Shown here: piece after piece, positions 12,011 through 20,133 of the stretch
Numbering within the stretch: the stretch's first letter is position 1
Layout: each line of letters starts with the position of its first letter
Source of the DNA: a virus
IMG/VR virus record: IMGVR_UViG_3300021067_000014
Location: 1 to 34,286 of that record
DNA: 34,286 nucleotides
Strand: one strand, 5' to 3'
Translations under genes and position numbers: made by a program
Notes under the pieces: model-generated
Database searches by the model: none
What the model was told of the DNA's origin: nothing
The model's input: the letters and a program-made list of their open reading frames with translations, nothing else

Positions 12011-13360
12011 ATGTTTAAATGGATTATCGCTTTTATCCTCATTATCGCGGGTTGTGAAAGACTCGTTACTAACAATGTAGAAGTAACTAAAGAAGTTCCC
12101 GTAAAAAAGCTTCAGGACTTCCCATGGGCTGAACAAGAGGTCATGGAGCATATCGCTCTTTGTGGAGTTGGGGTTGTAGAAGGCCAAGAGGGCCCTAACA
12201 AGTGCAGCTACCATATCAAGGTAGACGATCTCATGTATCAACACCCTTCCCTAAAAACGGGTCTTTTACATGATCCGGAATTTGCCTTTAAAGGGGCTAG
12301 TTTCTATGAGCCCGATGACATGAAAGAAGAGGATATTCCTGATTCTTTCGATTTAAGAGACCTCATGAAAAATGGAGTGCCTGATATCAGACAGCAGAAC
12401 TGTGGAGACTGCTGGGCCTGGGCTACTCATCATGGATTAGAGATTGTGAGAGCCGTTCACGATCAAAAAAATTTTGATCACAGTGTGCAGACCGTTCTTT
12501 CTTGCTCCAAACACGGAAGCTGTAACGGTGGGTATATGAGTGCCCCCGACTTCTTACTTAATCGCGGTCTTCCCTATGAGCCTGACTTCTCGTATCAGGG
12601 AAAGGATGCGAGATGTAAGTTTTCATCAGATGAATTAGCAAAAGGATGGGAAGGAAAGGTCATTTCCGCTCCCTATATCGGTAAAAGTAGCTGGCACTCT
12701 AGAGGGGCTCCCGAGAGAGAGGGAACTAAAGTAAAGGCCATGATGGAGGCGATGCTAAAGCTTAAGTCTCCTTTAGTCGTAACTGTGGCGGCCTATTCGT
12801 CCAGTGGTGGGGTGGTGGATAGCTGCTCTGCTATTAATAGCGGTGGAAATCACATGGTCGCTATTGTGGGTTGGGAGATGTGGAAAGGTAAAAGAGTCGC
12901 TCATGTGTGGAACTCCTGGGGTAAGTCGCACGGAGAAAATGGCGTTTCAAAAATTGTCTGGGAATGTGGAGACGGAAGACTGAATCGAGGTCTTGGAGTA
13001 GACGCCAGGGTCTATGAATATAAAGGGGTAAACCCGCCTGATCCCTGTGAGCTACCAGAAAACGTAATTGAGAAGCCAAAACACATGATGTTTTTGGGTA
13101 GTAGTGTGAAACTTGGAAGAGCTCCTAAGAAGGCTCAAACTTGTAAATGGATCCCGGCAGACGGAATAGATAATCCGAATAGCTGTGAGACCTATGCAAG
13201 TCCCAATAGATCGACTGAATATCATTTAGAAGCTTCCAATGCCTGTGGGAAAGTAAGCGGTATCTCTCAGGTGGATGTGTATGGACCCATGGGTAAGCTA
13301 GATGACTCTGTGCTGACCCCGTTTGGAATAATTAATCGCAATAAAAAGGAGAATAAATAA
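12011..13360 (+). CDS. Papain-family (C1A) cysteine protease, lipoprotein, with C-terminal Ig/PKD-like domain
   Basis: A 449-residue protease with all papain landmarks: Gln128 of the oxyanion hole and Cys134 in QQNCGDCWAW, the CNGGYMSAPDFLLNRGLPYE segment (171-190), His281 in GGNHMVAIVGW, and Asn301 in VWNSWG. The N-terminus (FILIIAGC, Cys15) is a lipobox, so the mature protein should be lipid-anchored outside the inner membrane. Residues 20-125 resemble a propeptide. Residues about 350-430 resemble a PKD/Ig-like beta domain (TCKWIPADGIDN, then TEYHLEASNACG). Papain-like enzymes are rare in phages. It may process envelope or virion proteins, act in lysis, or alter the surface of a lysogen; the sequence does not decide. 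Confidence 0.88.
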   Translation: MFKWIIAFILIIAGCERLVTNNVEVTKEVPVKKLQDFPWAEQEVMEHIALCGVGVVEGQEGPNKCSYHIKVDDLMYQHPSLKTGLLHDPEFAFKGASFYEPDDMKEEDIPDSFDLRDLMKNGVPDIRQQNCGDCWAWATHHGLEIVRAVHDQKNFDHSVQTVLSCSKHGSCNGGYMSAPDFLLNRGLPYEPDFSYQGKDARCKFSSDELAKGWEGKVISAPYIGKSSWHSRGAPEREGTKVKAMMEAMLKLKSPLVVTVAAYSSSGGVVDSCSAINSGGNHMVAIVGWEMWKGKRVAHVWNSWGKSHGENGVSKIVWECGDGRLNRGLGVDARVYEYKGVNPPDPCELPENVIEKPKHMMFLGSSVKLGRAPKKAQTCKWIPADGIDNPNSCETYASPNRSTEYHLEASNACGKVSGISQVDVYGPMGKLDDSVLTPFGIINRNKKENK

Positions 13361-15659: not shown

Positions 15660-15878
15660 TCATATATCGACCTCATTTTCGTTCAATATCGCATGGAACT
15701 TTTCCCATATTTCTTCGAGTAGTTCTTCTGGCTTTTTATTAGATACGTCGGAATGTTTCCTTAAAGAACGTAAGTAATGATGAAAGTCATTTAGTGCAGA
15801 AAGATAAGACGGTGCGTCTTGAGCGAGTTTGAACTCGTCTTGTTCTTCAGGAAGTTTAAACTTTAGAATGCCTATCAC
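15660..15878 (-). CDS. Small phage accessory protein (LPEE-E-F family pattern)
   Basis: A 72-residue helical protein starting at a GTG whose bases overlap the previous stop (GTGA). The N-terminus ILKFKLPEEQDEFKLAQDA, then ALNDFHHYLRSLRK, is a pattern I have seen in many small phage proteins of unknown role, where an LPEE-E-F strand-turn is followed by a helix with a conserved D/x-Y-L-R. The rest is acidic. A GGAGGAAAA site lies inside the end of the upstream coding sequence. Member of the chained early/accessory cluster. Confidence 0.65.
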   Translation of the reverse strand: MIGILKFKLPEEQDEFKLAQDAPSYLSALNDFHHYLRSLRKHSDVSNKKPEELLEEIWEKFHAILNENEVDI

Positions 15879-16019
15879 TTTTCCTCCGATTTTGCGCGGA
15901 TGTGGGTTAGGTTTTCGATTAGCTTTAATATTTCTTCCGTTGTTTCAGTTACGCCGCAAGAACCACTTTCCCCCTGTCGCCTCCCTCGCAAACTTCTTCC
16001 ATAGTTCGAGTTTGGTCAC
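15875..16019 (-). pseudogene. Frameshifted short Ea22-like paralog
   Basis: A GTG at 16019 overlapping the upstream stop (GTGA) opens a frame reading MTKLELWKKFAREATGGKWF that stops after 24 codons (15945). In the +1 frame the same DNA reads TETTEEILKLIENLTHIRAKSEEK and stops at 15875, again in a GTGA overlap with the next gene. Both halves match the ends of the intact neighbour at 16423-16740 (SRLDKWKKLADEAATGPW at the start, EEIRAKLEEK at the end). The frames meet at a GGGGGAAA run (about 15966-15973), so a single extra base, a sequencing slip, or a programmed +1 shift would explain it. The middle of the family is deleted. Confidence 0.65.
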
Positions 16020-16426
16020 TTCTGCTCCAGTTTCTCACCACACAATTTTAATGCGGCGAGACATATCGCATAGGGGGCCGTGGCTGCTTGAGCTATTATT
16101 CCTTGGACTACACAGGAAAATTCCTCGGCAATAGTCCATTCACCTTGAAAGATTCCCATCGCATAATTTTCCAGAAGTTTAGTTTTCTCTACCACTTCCC
16201 ACGCGGCACTGATGTCGGTGGAGTAGTGGGGGATTTGCATAAGCAGTTTTTCTTTTTTAAGTAACAGGGTATGTAACTCAACACCAGAATTGGTTTTTGC
16301 AACATCAAATTGTTGTTCTACATAGTGGACGAATTGAGTCATTGGACATGGTCCATTCCCAACATCAAACGTCATTCCAAATATTTTCTCCGCCACTAAA
16401 GCATCAAGTTCACGCCCTGGGTTCAC
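16016..16426 (-). CDS. Phage ABA-sandwich-domain protein
   Basis: A 136-residue protein with landmarks of this small phage family: RELDALVAEKIFG (5-17), PHYSTDISAAWEVVEK (about 66-81) and TAPYAICLAALKLCG (about 116-130). In the family these flank an alpha-beta-alpha sandwich; the biochemical role is not known. It starts at a GTG inside the GTGA overlap with the upstream gene, whose last codons supply the GGAGGAGAA ribosome binding site. Its own end supplies the same kind of signal to the frameshifted gene downstream. Confidence 0.75.
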   Translation of the reverse strand: MNPGRELDALVAEKIFGMTFDVGNGPCPMTQFVHYVEQQFDVAKTNSGVELHTLLLKKEKLLMQIPHYSTDISAAWEVVEKTKLLENYAMGIFQGEWTIAEEFSCVVQGIIAQAATAPYAICLAALKLCGEKLEQK

Positions 16427-16740
16427 TTCTCCTCCAGTTTCGCGCGGATTTCTTCACAAATTGGATGGTGTTTCTGGGTGCAATATTCACTGTGAATGAT
16501 GTCTAAGGCCTTCTCTAAAGATTCAATCAGCACAGGGACAGCTTCGCGTGATGCAGCGATGAATTCCCCTGTAGCGTCATTCACTTCCCGGTGCCGCTCA
16601 ATATATTGATCATAGCAACCATCCATCGAGCATATGCGAGTATCAATACTGTCATTTATTACATCCTTGAAGTTATCAAATGTCCACGGTCCGGTTGCCG
16701 CCTCATCCGCTAGCTTTTTCCATTTATCGAGCCTGCTCAC
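16423..16740 (-). CDS. Ea22-like phage accessory protein
   Basis: A 105-residue protein. The opening RLDKWKKLADEAATGPWTFDN and the segment TGEFIAASREAVPVLIESLEKAL (about 57-79) match the Ea22-like pattern, where a start containing A-x-x-A-T-x-G-P-W is followed by a later F-I-A-A-S-R-x-A-V-P helix. The family is common in the early regions of temperate phages; its function is unknown. It starts at a GTG in a GTGA overlap. A frameshifted short paralog lies at 15875-16019. Four Cys in the middle and end are of unknown significance. Confidence 0.75.
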   Translation of the reverse strand: MSRLDKWKKLADEAATGPWTFDNFKDVINDSIDTRICSMDGCYDQYIERHREVNDATGEFIAASREAVPVLIESLEKALDIIHSEYCTQKHHPICEEIRAKLEEK

Positions 16741-16976
16741 TTCTCCTCCACCGGTATCAAATAACAGCTAAACTTATAGGTCGGCGGCACGCTATGCGGC
16801 TCGCATTTCATCCAAATGCTATTGTGCTGAATCATGGAATAGGCTTTCGGCTGTTGGGATAGCCATTCATCGAATTTCTTCTGAGCTATCTGTGCAATAG
16901 ACTCTGGGAAGCTAGTCTTGCCTGGTGTTACGTCGATATTTGAGAAGTCTGAAGACTCGTACTTAAGCATTTTCAT
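16737..16976 (-). CDS. Small protein of unknown function
   Basis: About 79 residues from the ATG at 16976 (next in-frame ATG at 16970); longer versions starting as far as 17021 would be coded inside the upstream gene and look unnatural. The middle (FPESIAQIAQKKFDEWLSQQ) is a helix with an aromatic W; the end (PPTYKFSCYLIPVEEK) is beta-like. The last codons GAG-GAG-AAG plus GTGA form the start signal for the next gene. It overlaps the upstream gene by 14 bases. No family recognised. Confidence 0.6.
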   Translation of the reverse strand: MKMLKYESSDFSNIDVTPGKTSFPESIAQIAQKKFDEWLSQQPKAYSMIQHNSIWMKCEPHSVPPTYKFSCYLIPVEEK

Positions 16977-17265: not shown

Positions 17266-17454
17266 TTAGTCTTCCTCACAATAGCTACTTAGCTGTGGCA
17301 GGATTTGGCTAATGGGCTCCCCTTTGAGGGTGTTCTTTAGTTCCTCGCAATACTGAATCACGTTTCTGCAAGCGTCAGCTGGGGATGGGTTGCCACACAT
17401 TGCCTGGATATGTTCTAGGACCGATTGCCAATGGATAAAGTCGGATAGTCTCAT
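17266..17454 (-). CDS. Small helical protein of unknown function
   Basis: A 62-residue protein, mostly helical, with four Cys (19, 29, 36, 59). It starts at an ATG in an ATGA overlap with the upstream gene and ends 3 bases before the next start, so it is a full member of the chained cluster. I do not recognise a family. Length and coupling make it a credible gene despite its size. Confidence 0.6.
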   Translation of the reverse strand: MRLSDFIHWQSVLEHIQAMCGNPSPADACRNVIQYCEELKNTLKGEPISQILPQLSSYCEED

Positions 17455-17735
17455 TTCTTAGCCTTCTTACGTACAGACTTTGTTTGAAGCAGTGATTGGG
17501 CCCTTTCATATCTGTTTTTGGTAACTTCAAGCGCGAGTCGATTAATGCTGTGAGACAGTGTGTTGATAGCAATTTTAACATCTTTTCCATGGTAAAACAC
17601 ACGATTTGCTAGCACTAAAATGGCTGATTGAAGCGACTCTTTCCTGTTAGGTCCGATGCACCTGTTGTAGTCGTAAATTTCCCTAGACATGTCACCCCCG
17701 ATACTTTCGCAATGTTTTGATCTTTTGGGTCGCAT
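17451..17735 (-). CDS. Small basic protein of unknown function
   Basis: A 94-residue basic protein from the ATG at 17735, supported by GGAGAGG (17739-17745) just upstream; an internal ATG at 17690 with a GGGGGTGAC site would give 79 residues and may be used as well. The middle is a helix (SLQSAILVLANRVFYHGKD, then INTLSHSINRLALEV) and the C-terminus is very basic (KSVRKKAKK), a hint of nucleic-acid contact. It follows the ribbon-helix-helix gene. No family recognised. Confidence 0.6.
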   Translation of the reverse strand: MRPKRSKHCESIGGDMSREIYDYNRCIGPNRKESLQSAILVLANRVFYHGKDVKIAINTLSHSINRLALEVTKNRYERAQSLLQTKSVRKKAKK

Positions 17736-17744
17736 TCACCTCTC

Positions 17745-17969
17745 CTAGGATTTTTTAGCCTTCTTACTCTTTGCTTCACTTAACTCTACTGCTTCTTTCA
17801 TCCATTCTTGAACTGCAGCAGAAGTCGATATCGGGCCACATAATTTACTGAATTTATCGTAGATGGATCGGGAGAGGTAAAGGGTAATTCGTTCCCCATC
17901 GTTTATCTGCCGTTTTTGTACATCCTCAATGATGTCTATAGCAGTGCGTTTCTTCTTGGTGCGGGCCAT
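17745..17969 (-). CDS. Ribbon-helix-helix transcription regulator
   Basis: A 74-residue protein from the ATG at 17969 (AAAGGAG site upstream; a longer start at 18002 would run through the operator). The strand GERITLYLSRSIYDKFSKLCG (about 24-44) followed by TSAAVQEWMKEAVELSEAK is the beta-strand plus two-helix layout of Arc/CopG-type dimers, which place the strand in the DNA major groove. Both ends are Lys-rich. It is the first gene of the minus cluster, and an ATGTATG-N10-CATACAT repeat lies 14 bases upstream, so it probably controls its own operon and perhaps the divergent recombination genes. Confidence 0.75.
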   Translation of the reverse strand: MARTKKKRTAIDIIEDVQKRQINDGERITLYLSRSIYDKFSKLCGPISTSAAVQEWMKEAVELSEAKSKKAKKS

Positions 17970-19639: not shown

Positions 19640-19671
19640 ATAGGATTCGTATCGGCGGTATATTCGTGCTA

Positions 19672-20133
19672 ATGGCAGTTCCTATGACGCAAGAACAGGC
19701 GGAACTGGTTAAAACCCCGATTTTGAGAGTAAGAGCGCTCAGCGGAAGATGTAGATCGGCCCTAGCAAATATGGCCTGGGGCCTTGGTTTTGATGGGGTA
19801 CGGCTTCGCGGTAAGGAAATTTTGTTAGAAGATGTTTTGACTATGGGTGCTCATAAACTGCTCCAAGTTAAGGGCTTTGGACGGAAATCCCTTAAAGAGC
19901 TTCTGGGTTTCATAGAAAAAAATCGATTCAATTTGGCCCCTGGACCTGATGTTAATCTCGAAGAATCCCCCAAAAGAGGTACGAAGCCATATAAAAGAAA
20001 ATACCTCTGGATTCCCAACCAAGAGGTAAAGCGGTGGGAAAAACGCATGAATGGAAAAGGTTATACCCAGGTATTGGTTTATGCCATTGACGGAAAACTC
20101 ACGACTAAATATAAAAAACGCGGATCGTTCTAA
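19672..20133 (+). CDS. RNA polymerase alpha-CTD-like protein
   Basis: A 153-residue protein from the ATG at 19672. Residues 16-85 follow the bacterial alpha-subunit C-terminal domain: RVRALSGRCRSALANMAW resembles the S-x-R-x-x-N-x-L-x-x-A segment, then LEDVLTMGAHKLLQVKGFGRKSLKELLGFI gives the helix-hairpin-helix with G-F-G-R-K-S-L-x-E. In RNA polymerase this domain contacts UP-element DNA and activators. No alpha N-terminal domain is present. The C-terminal 70 residues are basic. TATATT (19659-19664) ends 7 bases before the ATG and no ribosome binding site is seen, so the message may be leaderless. The gene lies between two identical 28-bp repeats. It may redirect or inhibit host transcription; other HhH DNA-binding roles remain possible. 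Confidence 0.75.
   Translation: MAVPMTQEQAELVKTPILRVRALSGRCRSALANMAWGLGFDGVRLRGKEILLEDVLTMGAHKLLQVKGFGRKSLKELLGFIEKNRFNLAPGPDVNLEESPKRGTKPYKRKYLWIPNQEVKRWEKRMNGKGYTQVLVYAIDGKLTTKYKKRGSF

Follow-up and report, generated by a model that had tools for sequence, protein, structure and literature searches.

The Gene Cluster and Its Repeated Joint

The window, that is the whole stretch of DNA analysed here, is IMG/VR virus record IMGVR_UViG_3300021067_000014 (34,286 bases), from an uncultured phage, and the subject of this work is a run of small genes on its minus strand at about 15.4 to 18.0 kb, in which successive gene joints carry nearly the same sequence. An earlier note on this DNA, made from the letters alone, had reported one 13-mer at four joints, identical or one base off, and the sites (J1 to J4, Table 1) are indeed occupied by two exact copies and two copies with one mismatch. 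In each copy one frame reads E-E-K or E-Q-K and a stop codon, and the overlapping sequence offers a Shine-Dalgarno (SD) motif and a GTGA stop/start overlap for the next gene. A search of both strands of the whole window, allowing up to two mismatches, found no match beyond these four. Shuffled sequences contained 1.09 matches on average, and four matches anywhere in the window were reached by 1 of 100 shuffles. The other genes of the window, according to a rough gene table, mostly start with ATG and have varied upstream sequences, so that four like joints in a row are unusual for this phage.

J1 (16737) and J2 (16423) agree exactly over 14 nucleotides (nt), one more than the 13-mer, and J2 and J3 agree over 19 nt with a single mismatch, the likeness extending 6 nt upstream of the 13-mer. 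This 19-nt direct repeat lies on either side of gene C and comprises the last codons of gene A, the SD motif and GTGA. When the joints were folded singly, J3 alone did markedly better than its shuffles (z of -2.26, with 0.35, 0.42 and -0.89 for the others), owing to a hairpin located within gene C, upstream of the joint; no fold common to all four joints was seen in this individual folding. A second pair of like gene ends is present in the cluster at 17453-17470 and 17750-17767, with 17 of 18 nt in common (...KKAKK). The longest exact run of this pair is 13 nt, which places it under the 14 nt used in the survey described below, and the gene end at 17453-17470 also makes an ATGA joint.

Table 1. 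Joints, repeats and genes of the minus-strand cluster (window coordinates)
Feature	Position	Strand	Remarks
Joint J1	16737..16749	-	closes gene D (...PVEEK stop) and supplies SD and GTG for gene A; exact 13-mer GGAGGAGAAGTGA
Joint J2	16423..16435	-	closes gene A (...RAKLEEK stop) and supplies SD and GTG for gene C; exact 13-mer GGAGGAGAAGTGA
Joint J3	16016..16028	-	closes gene C (...GEKLEQK stop) and supplies SD and GTG for relic A'; one mismatch, GGAGCAGAAGTGA
Joint J4	15875..15887	-	closes relic A' (...RAKSEEK stop) and supplies SD and GTG for gene E; one mismatch, GGAGGAAAAGTGA
19-nt direct repeat, copy at gene C start	16423..16441	-	GAAACTGGAGGAGAAGTGA
19-nt direct repeat, copy at gene C end	16016..16034	-	GAAACTGGAGCAGAAGTGA; 18/19 identical
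Gene D	16737..16976	-	about 78 amino acids; no match in Pfam or PHROG at E up to 1; start codon not certain (ATG at 16973 or a little further upstream)
Gene A	16423..16740	-	105 amino acids, GTG start; small phage protein with ATGPW ... EFIAASREAVP
Gene C	16016..16426	-	136 amino acids, GTG start; PF18066 Phage_ABA_S (E 1.1e-13)
Relic A'	15875..16019	-	145 nt against 318 nt in gene A; start like gene A, tail like gene A in another frame
Gene E	15660..15878	-	72 amino acids, GTG start; without confident family

A Decayed Copy of Gene A

The match of gene C to PF18066 reaches 52.1 bits, compared to a Pfam gathering threshold of 27, and gene A has PHROG matches of unknown function (best phrog_722, E 2.1e-5) and no Pfam match. 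The earlier note had taken every joint to end one gene and to start the next, which fails at J3, where the frame opened by the GTG ends after 24 codons and a different frame finishes ...HIRAKSEEK* at J4. The four joints are thus followed by three intact genes, A, C and E; between C and E there is no intact gene, and the gene list had to be corrected, since one supposed gene is a relic.

As judged from its two ends, the stretch 15875-16019 reads as a decayed, internally shortened paralogue of gene A, and is called A' here. Its start (VTKLELWKKFAREATGGKW, compared to VSRLDKWKKLADEAATGPW in gene A) agrees with that of gene A at 35 of the 56 nt after GTGA, the sole such match among 68,460 window positions when the match to itself is excepted, and a local alignment of the two starts, taken with the motif, scores 40, whereas none of 200 shuffles exceeds 29. 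The tail HIRAKSEEK resembles the tail EIRAKLEEK of gene A, and a local alignment of the two ends including the motif scores 32, against a maximum of 27 in 200 shuffles. Gene C is placed between A and A'.

Joint Repeats in Loci with Gene C Relatives

A profile scan yielded at least 80 viral loci that encode gene C relatives by tblastn. After one locus had been dropped because it had no start codon and the window had been added, the survey set comprised 80 loci, 67 of them non-redundant, and the 36 nt around same-strand gene joints, from -30 to +6 relative to the starts, as called by a simple gene caller made for this survey, were compared. Within the 67 loci, window included, 19 of 2,779 junction pairs have an exact 14-mer or longer sequence in common, compared to none of 39,961 pairs between non-homologous loci matched for GC content and 12 of 6,120 pairs between loci with detectable DNA similarity. 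Exact 13-mers gave 21 of 2,779 within loci and 2 of 39,961 between unrelated ones. The 19 pairs fall in 15 loci, and the same count with shifted zones had a mean of 0.73 and a maximum of 3 (62 shifts). A different count, of exact repeats with both midpoints in joint zones, found 20 of 158, in 16 loci, where random placement predicts 0.70.

The repeats tend to flank single genes: in 14 of the 19 pairs the two joints are neighbours with one gene between them, compared to 449 of 2,771 pairs overall (binomial p 4e-8, with pairs taken as independent although loci L100 and L126 give several). The genes next to the joints are for the most part unrelated: the upstream gene bodies are similar (E < 0.001) in one pair (L077), and no pair has similar downstream bodies, if a common tail in L126 is excepted. 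In L126 two adjacent proteins that are not related both end in KEIEKRITGDE. Further shared tails are AVETRTA and AVETRSA in L083, and LQGGNE at the end of two proteins in L116. The repeated sequences differ from phage to phage; they are locus-specific, and the 13-mer of the window is therefore not a shared exchange site. The excess of joint repeats is real in this kind of locus, and it is not universal.

Other sets gave varied counts. The 25 contigs found by scanning IMG/VR with a 17-nt version of the motif contain 2 pairs, compared to a null mean of 0.03, and one of them (L009) involves the scanned motif itself. In four loci that encode gene A-like proteins 3 pairs were found, all within two of the loci, compared to 0.00, and 5 loci from bacterial genomes had no junction repeats at 45 junctions. 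An unrelated viral contig, L007, carries a 25-nt exact repeat at two ATGA joints, of which 14 nt are shared by a third joint (around 11231, 11590 and 13900).

Genes Present or Absent from Start to Start

A scan of 51 similar locus pairs for clean insertions or deletions (indels) of single genes found 6, five of them in the pair L136/L144, which is 85-95% identical over blocks of more than 100 nt. A gene for 63 amino acids, located between the gene C relative and the next gene, is complete in L144 and absent in L136. The insert spans the distance between two start codons, with the 14-mer TGACCGACAACGAA at its bounds. This 14-mer occurs twice in L144; L136 has no exact copy and one TGAGCGACAACGA. 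The extra gene takes over the old neighbour's ribosome site and brings a new one; the core of the new site, GACGAAAGGCGGGCG, is also found ahead of a later gene. Start-to-start ends are likewise seen in two more indels of L136/L144, one of a 266-amino-acid gene with a DNA methylase domain (PF01555) and ATGAAG repeated, the other of a 69-amino-acid gene with ATGA repeated; of the remaining indels one lies within a gene and one is intergenic. The automatic start-to-start test scored two of the five, the 69-amino-acid case being missed because the downstream frame has 34 codons and the threshold was 40. In the phages Auxilium and BenchScraper both clean indels (2/2) run from start to start, and their ends agree with annotated starts in Auxilium. 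Four of seven indels by the automatic test, or five of seven with one read by eye, provide modest support for turnover of this kind, as the test succeeds in 12-34% of trials at random placement.

In locus L102 (2535-3348) relatives of gene C stand in tandem; their tails (AVMDGEDKHG) are nearly identical, and the end of the first copy carries the ribosome site of the second. The matching stretch of L076 has one copy. The pair L076/L102, a further hit that amounts to a tandem copy of the gene C relative, was left out of the indel count.

Relatives of the Phage

A single-protein search of viral contigs confirmed no relatives of genes A and C, gene C had none in genome contigs, and in a phage collection neither genes A and C by tblastn nor the DNA of the cluster found a match. 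A second isolate of the phage with a reordered cluster was not found either. By way of the terminase, two relatives were recovered at first, and a profile raised the total to nine, including one weak match. A whole-contig comparison of the minus-strand cluster proteins with the first two gave no match at E 0.01; the plus-strand neighbour p18054 has a match in one terminase relative, G001. Among the ten records formed by the window and its terminase relatives, PF18066 is present in three (window, G006 and G007) and a gene A-like match in two (window and G008, E 2.5e-4), so that distant relatives carry single members of the families seen in the cluster.

The check that the earlier note had proposed, for the same 13-mer at gene boundaries in relatives, turned out negative: the tight pattern occurs in neither of the first two terminase relatives, and the matches in four of the nine all have 2 mismatches. 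A sequence conserved at the gene boundaries of related phages that could exchange genes was not seen among them.

The stretch 1-6001 of L059, part of G008, is an accessory region full of direct repeats of 20-65 nt that lie at gene ends, at starts and in gene interiors, and a linker, RRTPSLSEPSQTEA, recurs in three of its proteins in different surroundings. In bacterial genomes PF18066 was found in none of five in one set and in 3 of 369 in another, two of them above the cut-off. The bacterial loci L062, L063 and L064, which were left out of the junction survey, have PF18066-like open frames on the minus strand near the middle, with a regulator-like frame beside two of the three; these frames possibly belong to a non-phage branch of the family. 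Elsewhere in the window, 12011-13360 encodes a papain-family cysteine protease (PF00112, E 3.2e-27), to which a similar gene exists in G001, and 19666-20133 encodes a protein of 155 amino acids that weakly matches the C-terminal domain of the RNA polymerase alpha subunit (PF03118, E 0.0015, under the curated cut-off).

Origin of the Repeated Joints

The repeats are probably copies of a joint that arose by duplication of gene A and by the arrival of a further unit between A and A'. The cluster may be regarded as a translationally coupled array of small accessory genes, in which each unit would span one GTGA start to the next and end in its own C-terminal tail together with the ribosome site of its neighbour; on this view, local copies of one joint made up of tail, SD and start would constitute the repeated 13- to 19-mers. 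Gene A appears to have been duplicated with its joint, leaving the decayed A', and a further unit, most plausibly gene C, would have come between the two, with the joint repeated on both sides. Events that begin and end at a joint should keep both frames and the coupling intact, and for this reason they would be the ones that survive. The order of these events, with gene C as the newcomer, is inferred, and so is the view that the short repeats aided recombination instead of being merely left by it.

Convergence would offer a simpler origin, for a GTGA overlap with a strong SD forces GGAGG, E-E-K follows from the frame, and selection for coupled translation would do the rest with no recombination at all. 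The sequence does arise independently, as is evident from scattered viral contigs: in 17 of the 25 found by the motif scan the match stands at a stop/start joint, nearly always as a single copy, with each of the two frames open there over 40 codons or more. Furthermore, GTGA, ATGA and TTGA junctions with an SD are nearer to the motif than those lacking one (motif-chosen loci included), and where unselected SD junctions have GGAG in the same register, agreement at 12 or 13 of 13 positions is reached by 7 of 178 between-locus pairs, compared to 8 of 4,160 for all unselected SD junctions; with a fixed register it is thus no rarity for two given joints to come close by chance. On the other hand, of 602 junctions in other surveyed loci that were not chosen by the motif, 1 lies within one mismatch of the 13-mer and 4 within two, which makes four in a row by convergence alone unlikely. 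The excess of exact 13-mers within loci and the extension of the J2/J3 repeat 6 nt upstream strain this explanation further; it was already strained and is considered distinctly unlikely. A plain tandem duplication of gene A, one copy of which decayed beside a gene C that was already present, with nothing slotted in, is also unlikely, if somewhat less so. The paralogy of A and A' accounts for the likeness of J1 with J3 and of J2 with J4, but it leaves unexplained why J1 equals J2 at both ends of A and why the ends of A and C are alike over 19 nt. It is very improbable, finally, that the 13-mer is a start-associated sequence like those of the mycobacteriophages of cluster K, where a conserved element that serves translation stands at gene starts. 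It has the length of 13 nt, contains the SD, stands directly before unrelated small genes outside the structural module and occurs nowhere else in the window; yet there are 4 copies in 0.9 kb instead of the 11-19 per genome given for the phages in the parts of PMC3203893 that count them, the repeat runs through the start codon and, at J2/J3, into upstream tail codons, no common fold was seen, with J3 alone folding markedly better than its shuffles, and the relatives have no copy with fewer than two mismatches.

Several observations weigh against the duplication and arrival of units proposed above, besides the same-register matches just given. J1 and J2 have no homology beyond their common 14 nt, and their common descent consequently rests on the survey, which was set up once outliers in these loci were already apparent and used a crude gene caller. 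Outside the 13-mer, the ends of A and A' agree at 12 of 24 nt in register, a level attained at 439 of 68,524 positions of the window and not significant alone. Since no relative carrying this cluster was found, an empty site for C or A' was not seen. The 11 terminase-relative sources give the window's own pair only (1, compared to a null mean of 0.23), and two annotated Arthrobacter phages have no junction repeats at 63 and 47 junctions. The bacterial control (26 stretches, 25 with gene calls; two further stretches of about 0.5 kb were not used) gave 2 of 793 pairs compared to a null mean of 0.44, numbers too small to demonstrate a difference from phages. The start-to-start indels of Auxilium and BenchScraper, annotated phages without junction repeats, indicate that repeats are not needed, and 13-19 nt is shorter than general recombination usually uses.

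The earlier note had interpreted the cluster as a modular cassette array whose shared 13-mer would let genes be swapped. This reading is partly supported: convergence is unlikely, joint repeats flank single genes in other loci, and in L136/L144 a whole gene is present or absent from start to start, with a 14-nt repeat at its ends. What did not hold is a 13-mer common to relatives, and part of the repetition is inherited from the A/A' duplication; swapping is a proposal for the phage of the window. A broader idea, rather doubtful at this stage, is that phage accessory arrays stay swappable since copied joints would make single-gene cassettes from start to start, with a joint sequence specific to each genome, and that recombination between the copies would add, drop and re-tail genes while translation remains coupled; the window would then be a snapshot of such a self-generated array.

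Comparison with Known Systems

Single-gene exchange at gene boundaries in phages is an old question, for which two models are set out in the relevant passages of PMC3233612, one of recombination at short boundary sequences and one in which joining is random and selection follows. Joint repeats inside one genome are a countable signature that lies above two nulls in the survey (15 of 67 loci with gene C relatives), and the boundary-sequence recombination model thereby becomes testable on public genomes. Insertion of copied genes at their start points, the likeliest origin of the repeated joints, is a known route by which phages reshuffle spare genes, though it has rarely been counted; in the open-access literature no count of joint repeats within phage genomes turned up.

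The start-associated sequences (PMC3203893; Microbacterium phage AnnaSerena, PMC7302621) have in common with the window a repeated 13-nt sequence with an SD before unrelated non-structural genes, and the upstream stop can fall inside it. According to the sections of these papers that describe them, they are present in many copies genome-wide, are conserved in related phages and typically lie 3-7 bp before the start codon, whereas the sequence of the window runs through it.

The closest precedent is gene 68 of Island3, a mycobacteriophage of cluster I, published in 2011, and the anatomy of the window is the same. As reported in the part of PMC3029335 that deals with this gene, its C-terminal 18 residues are closely related to those of gene 67, also in DNA, and Brujita has one copy and lacks the gene; the authors compare the case with the boundary-sequence model and interpret it as recombination at the shared end. 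Likewise, the 3' end of gene C repeats the 3' end of gene A in DNA (18/19 nt). In Island3, however, the repeat measures about 50-60 bp and a very close relative shows the single copy without the gene, whereas the window has 13-19 nt at several successive joints and a decayed paralogue, and the searches for relatives brought no empty site to light; one was seen in the pair L136/L144 only. The same text describes 1.35 kb between 29-bp repeats in LRRHood.

Module boundaries from start codon to start codon are described for Gumball 51 and Troll4 52 (PMC3233612), and there, as in L136/L144 and in Auxilium/BenchScraper, the units begin and end exactly at start codons. That case was recognized as a gene replacement by sequence alignment, and the passages of PMC3233612 devoted to it do not mention a repeated joint. 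The conserved boundary sequences of lambdoid phages, as outlined in the pertinent passages of PMC3233612 and PMC3029335, resemble the joints of the window in that short intergenic sequences are proposed to serve single-gene exchange. They are, however, proposed to be common to different phages, whereas repeats of the type found in the window lie within one locus and differ between phages.
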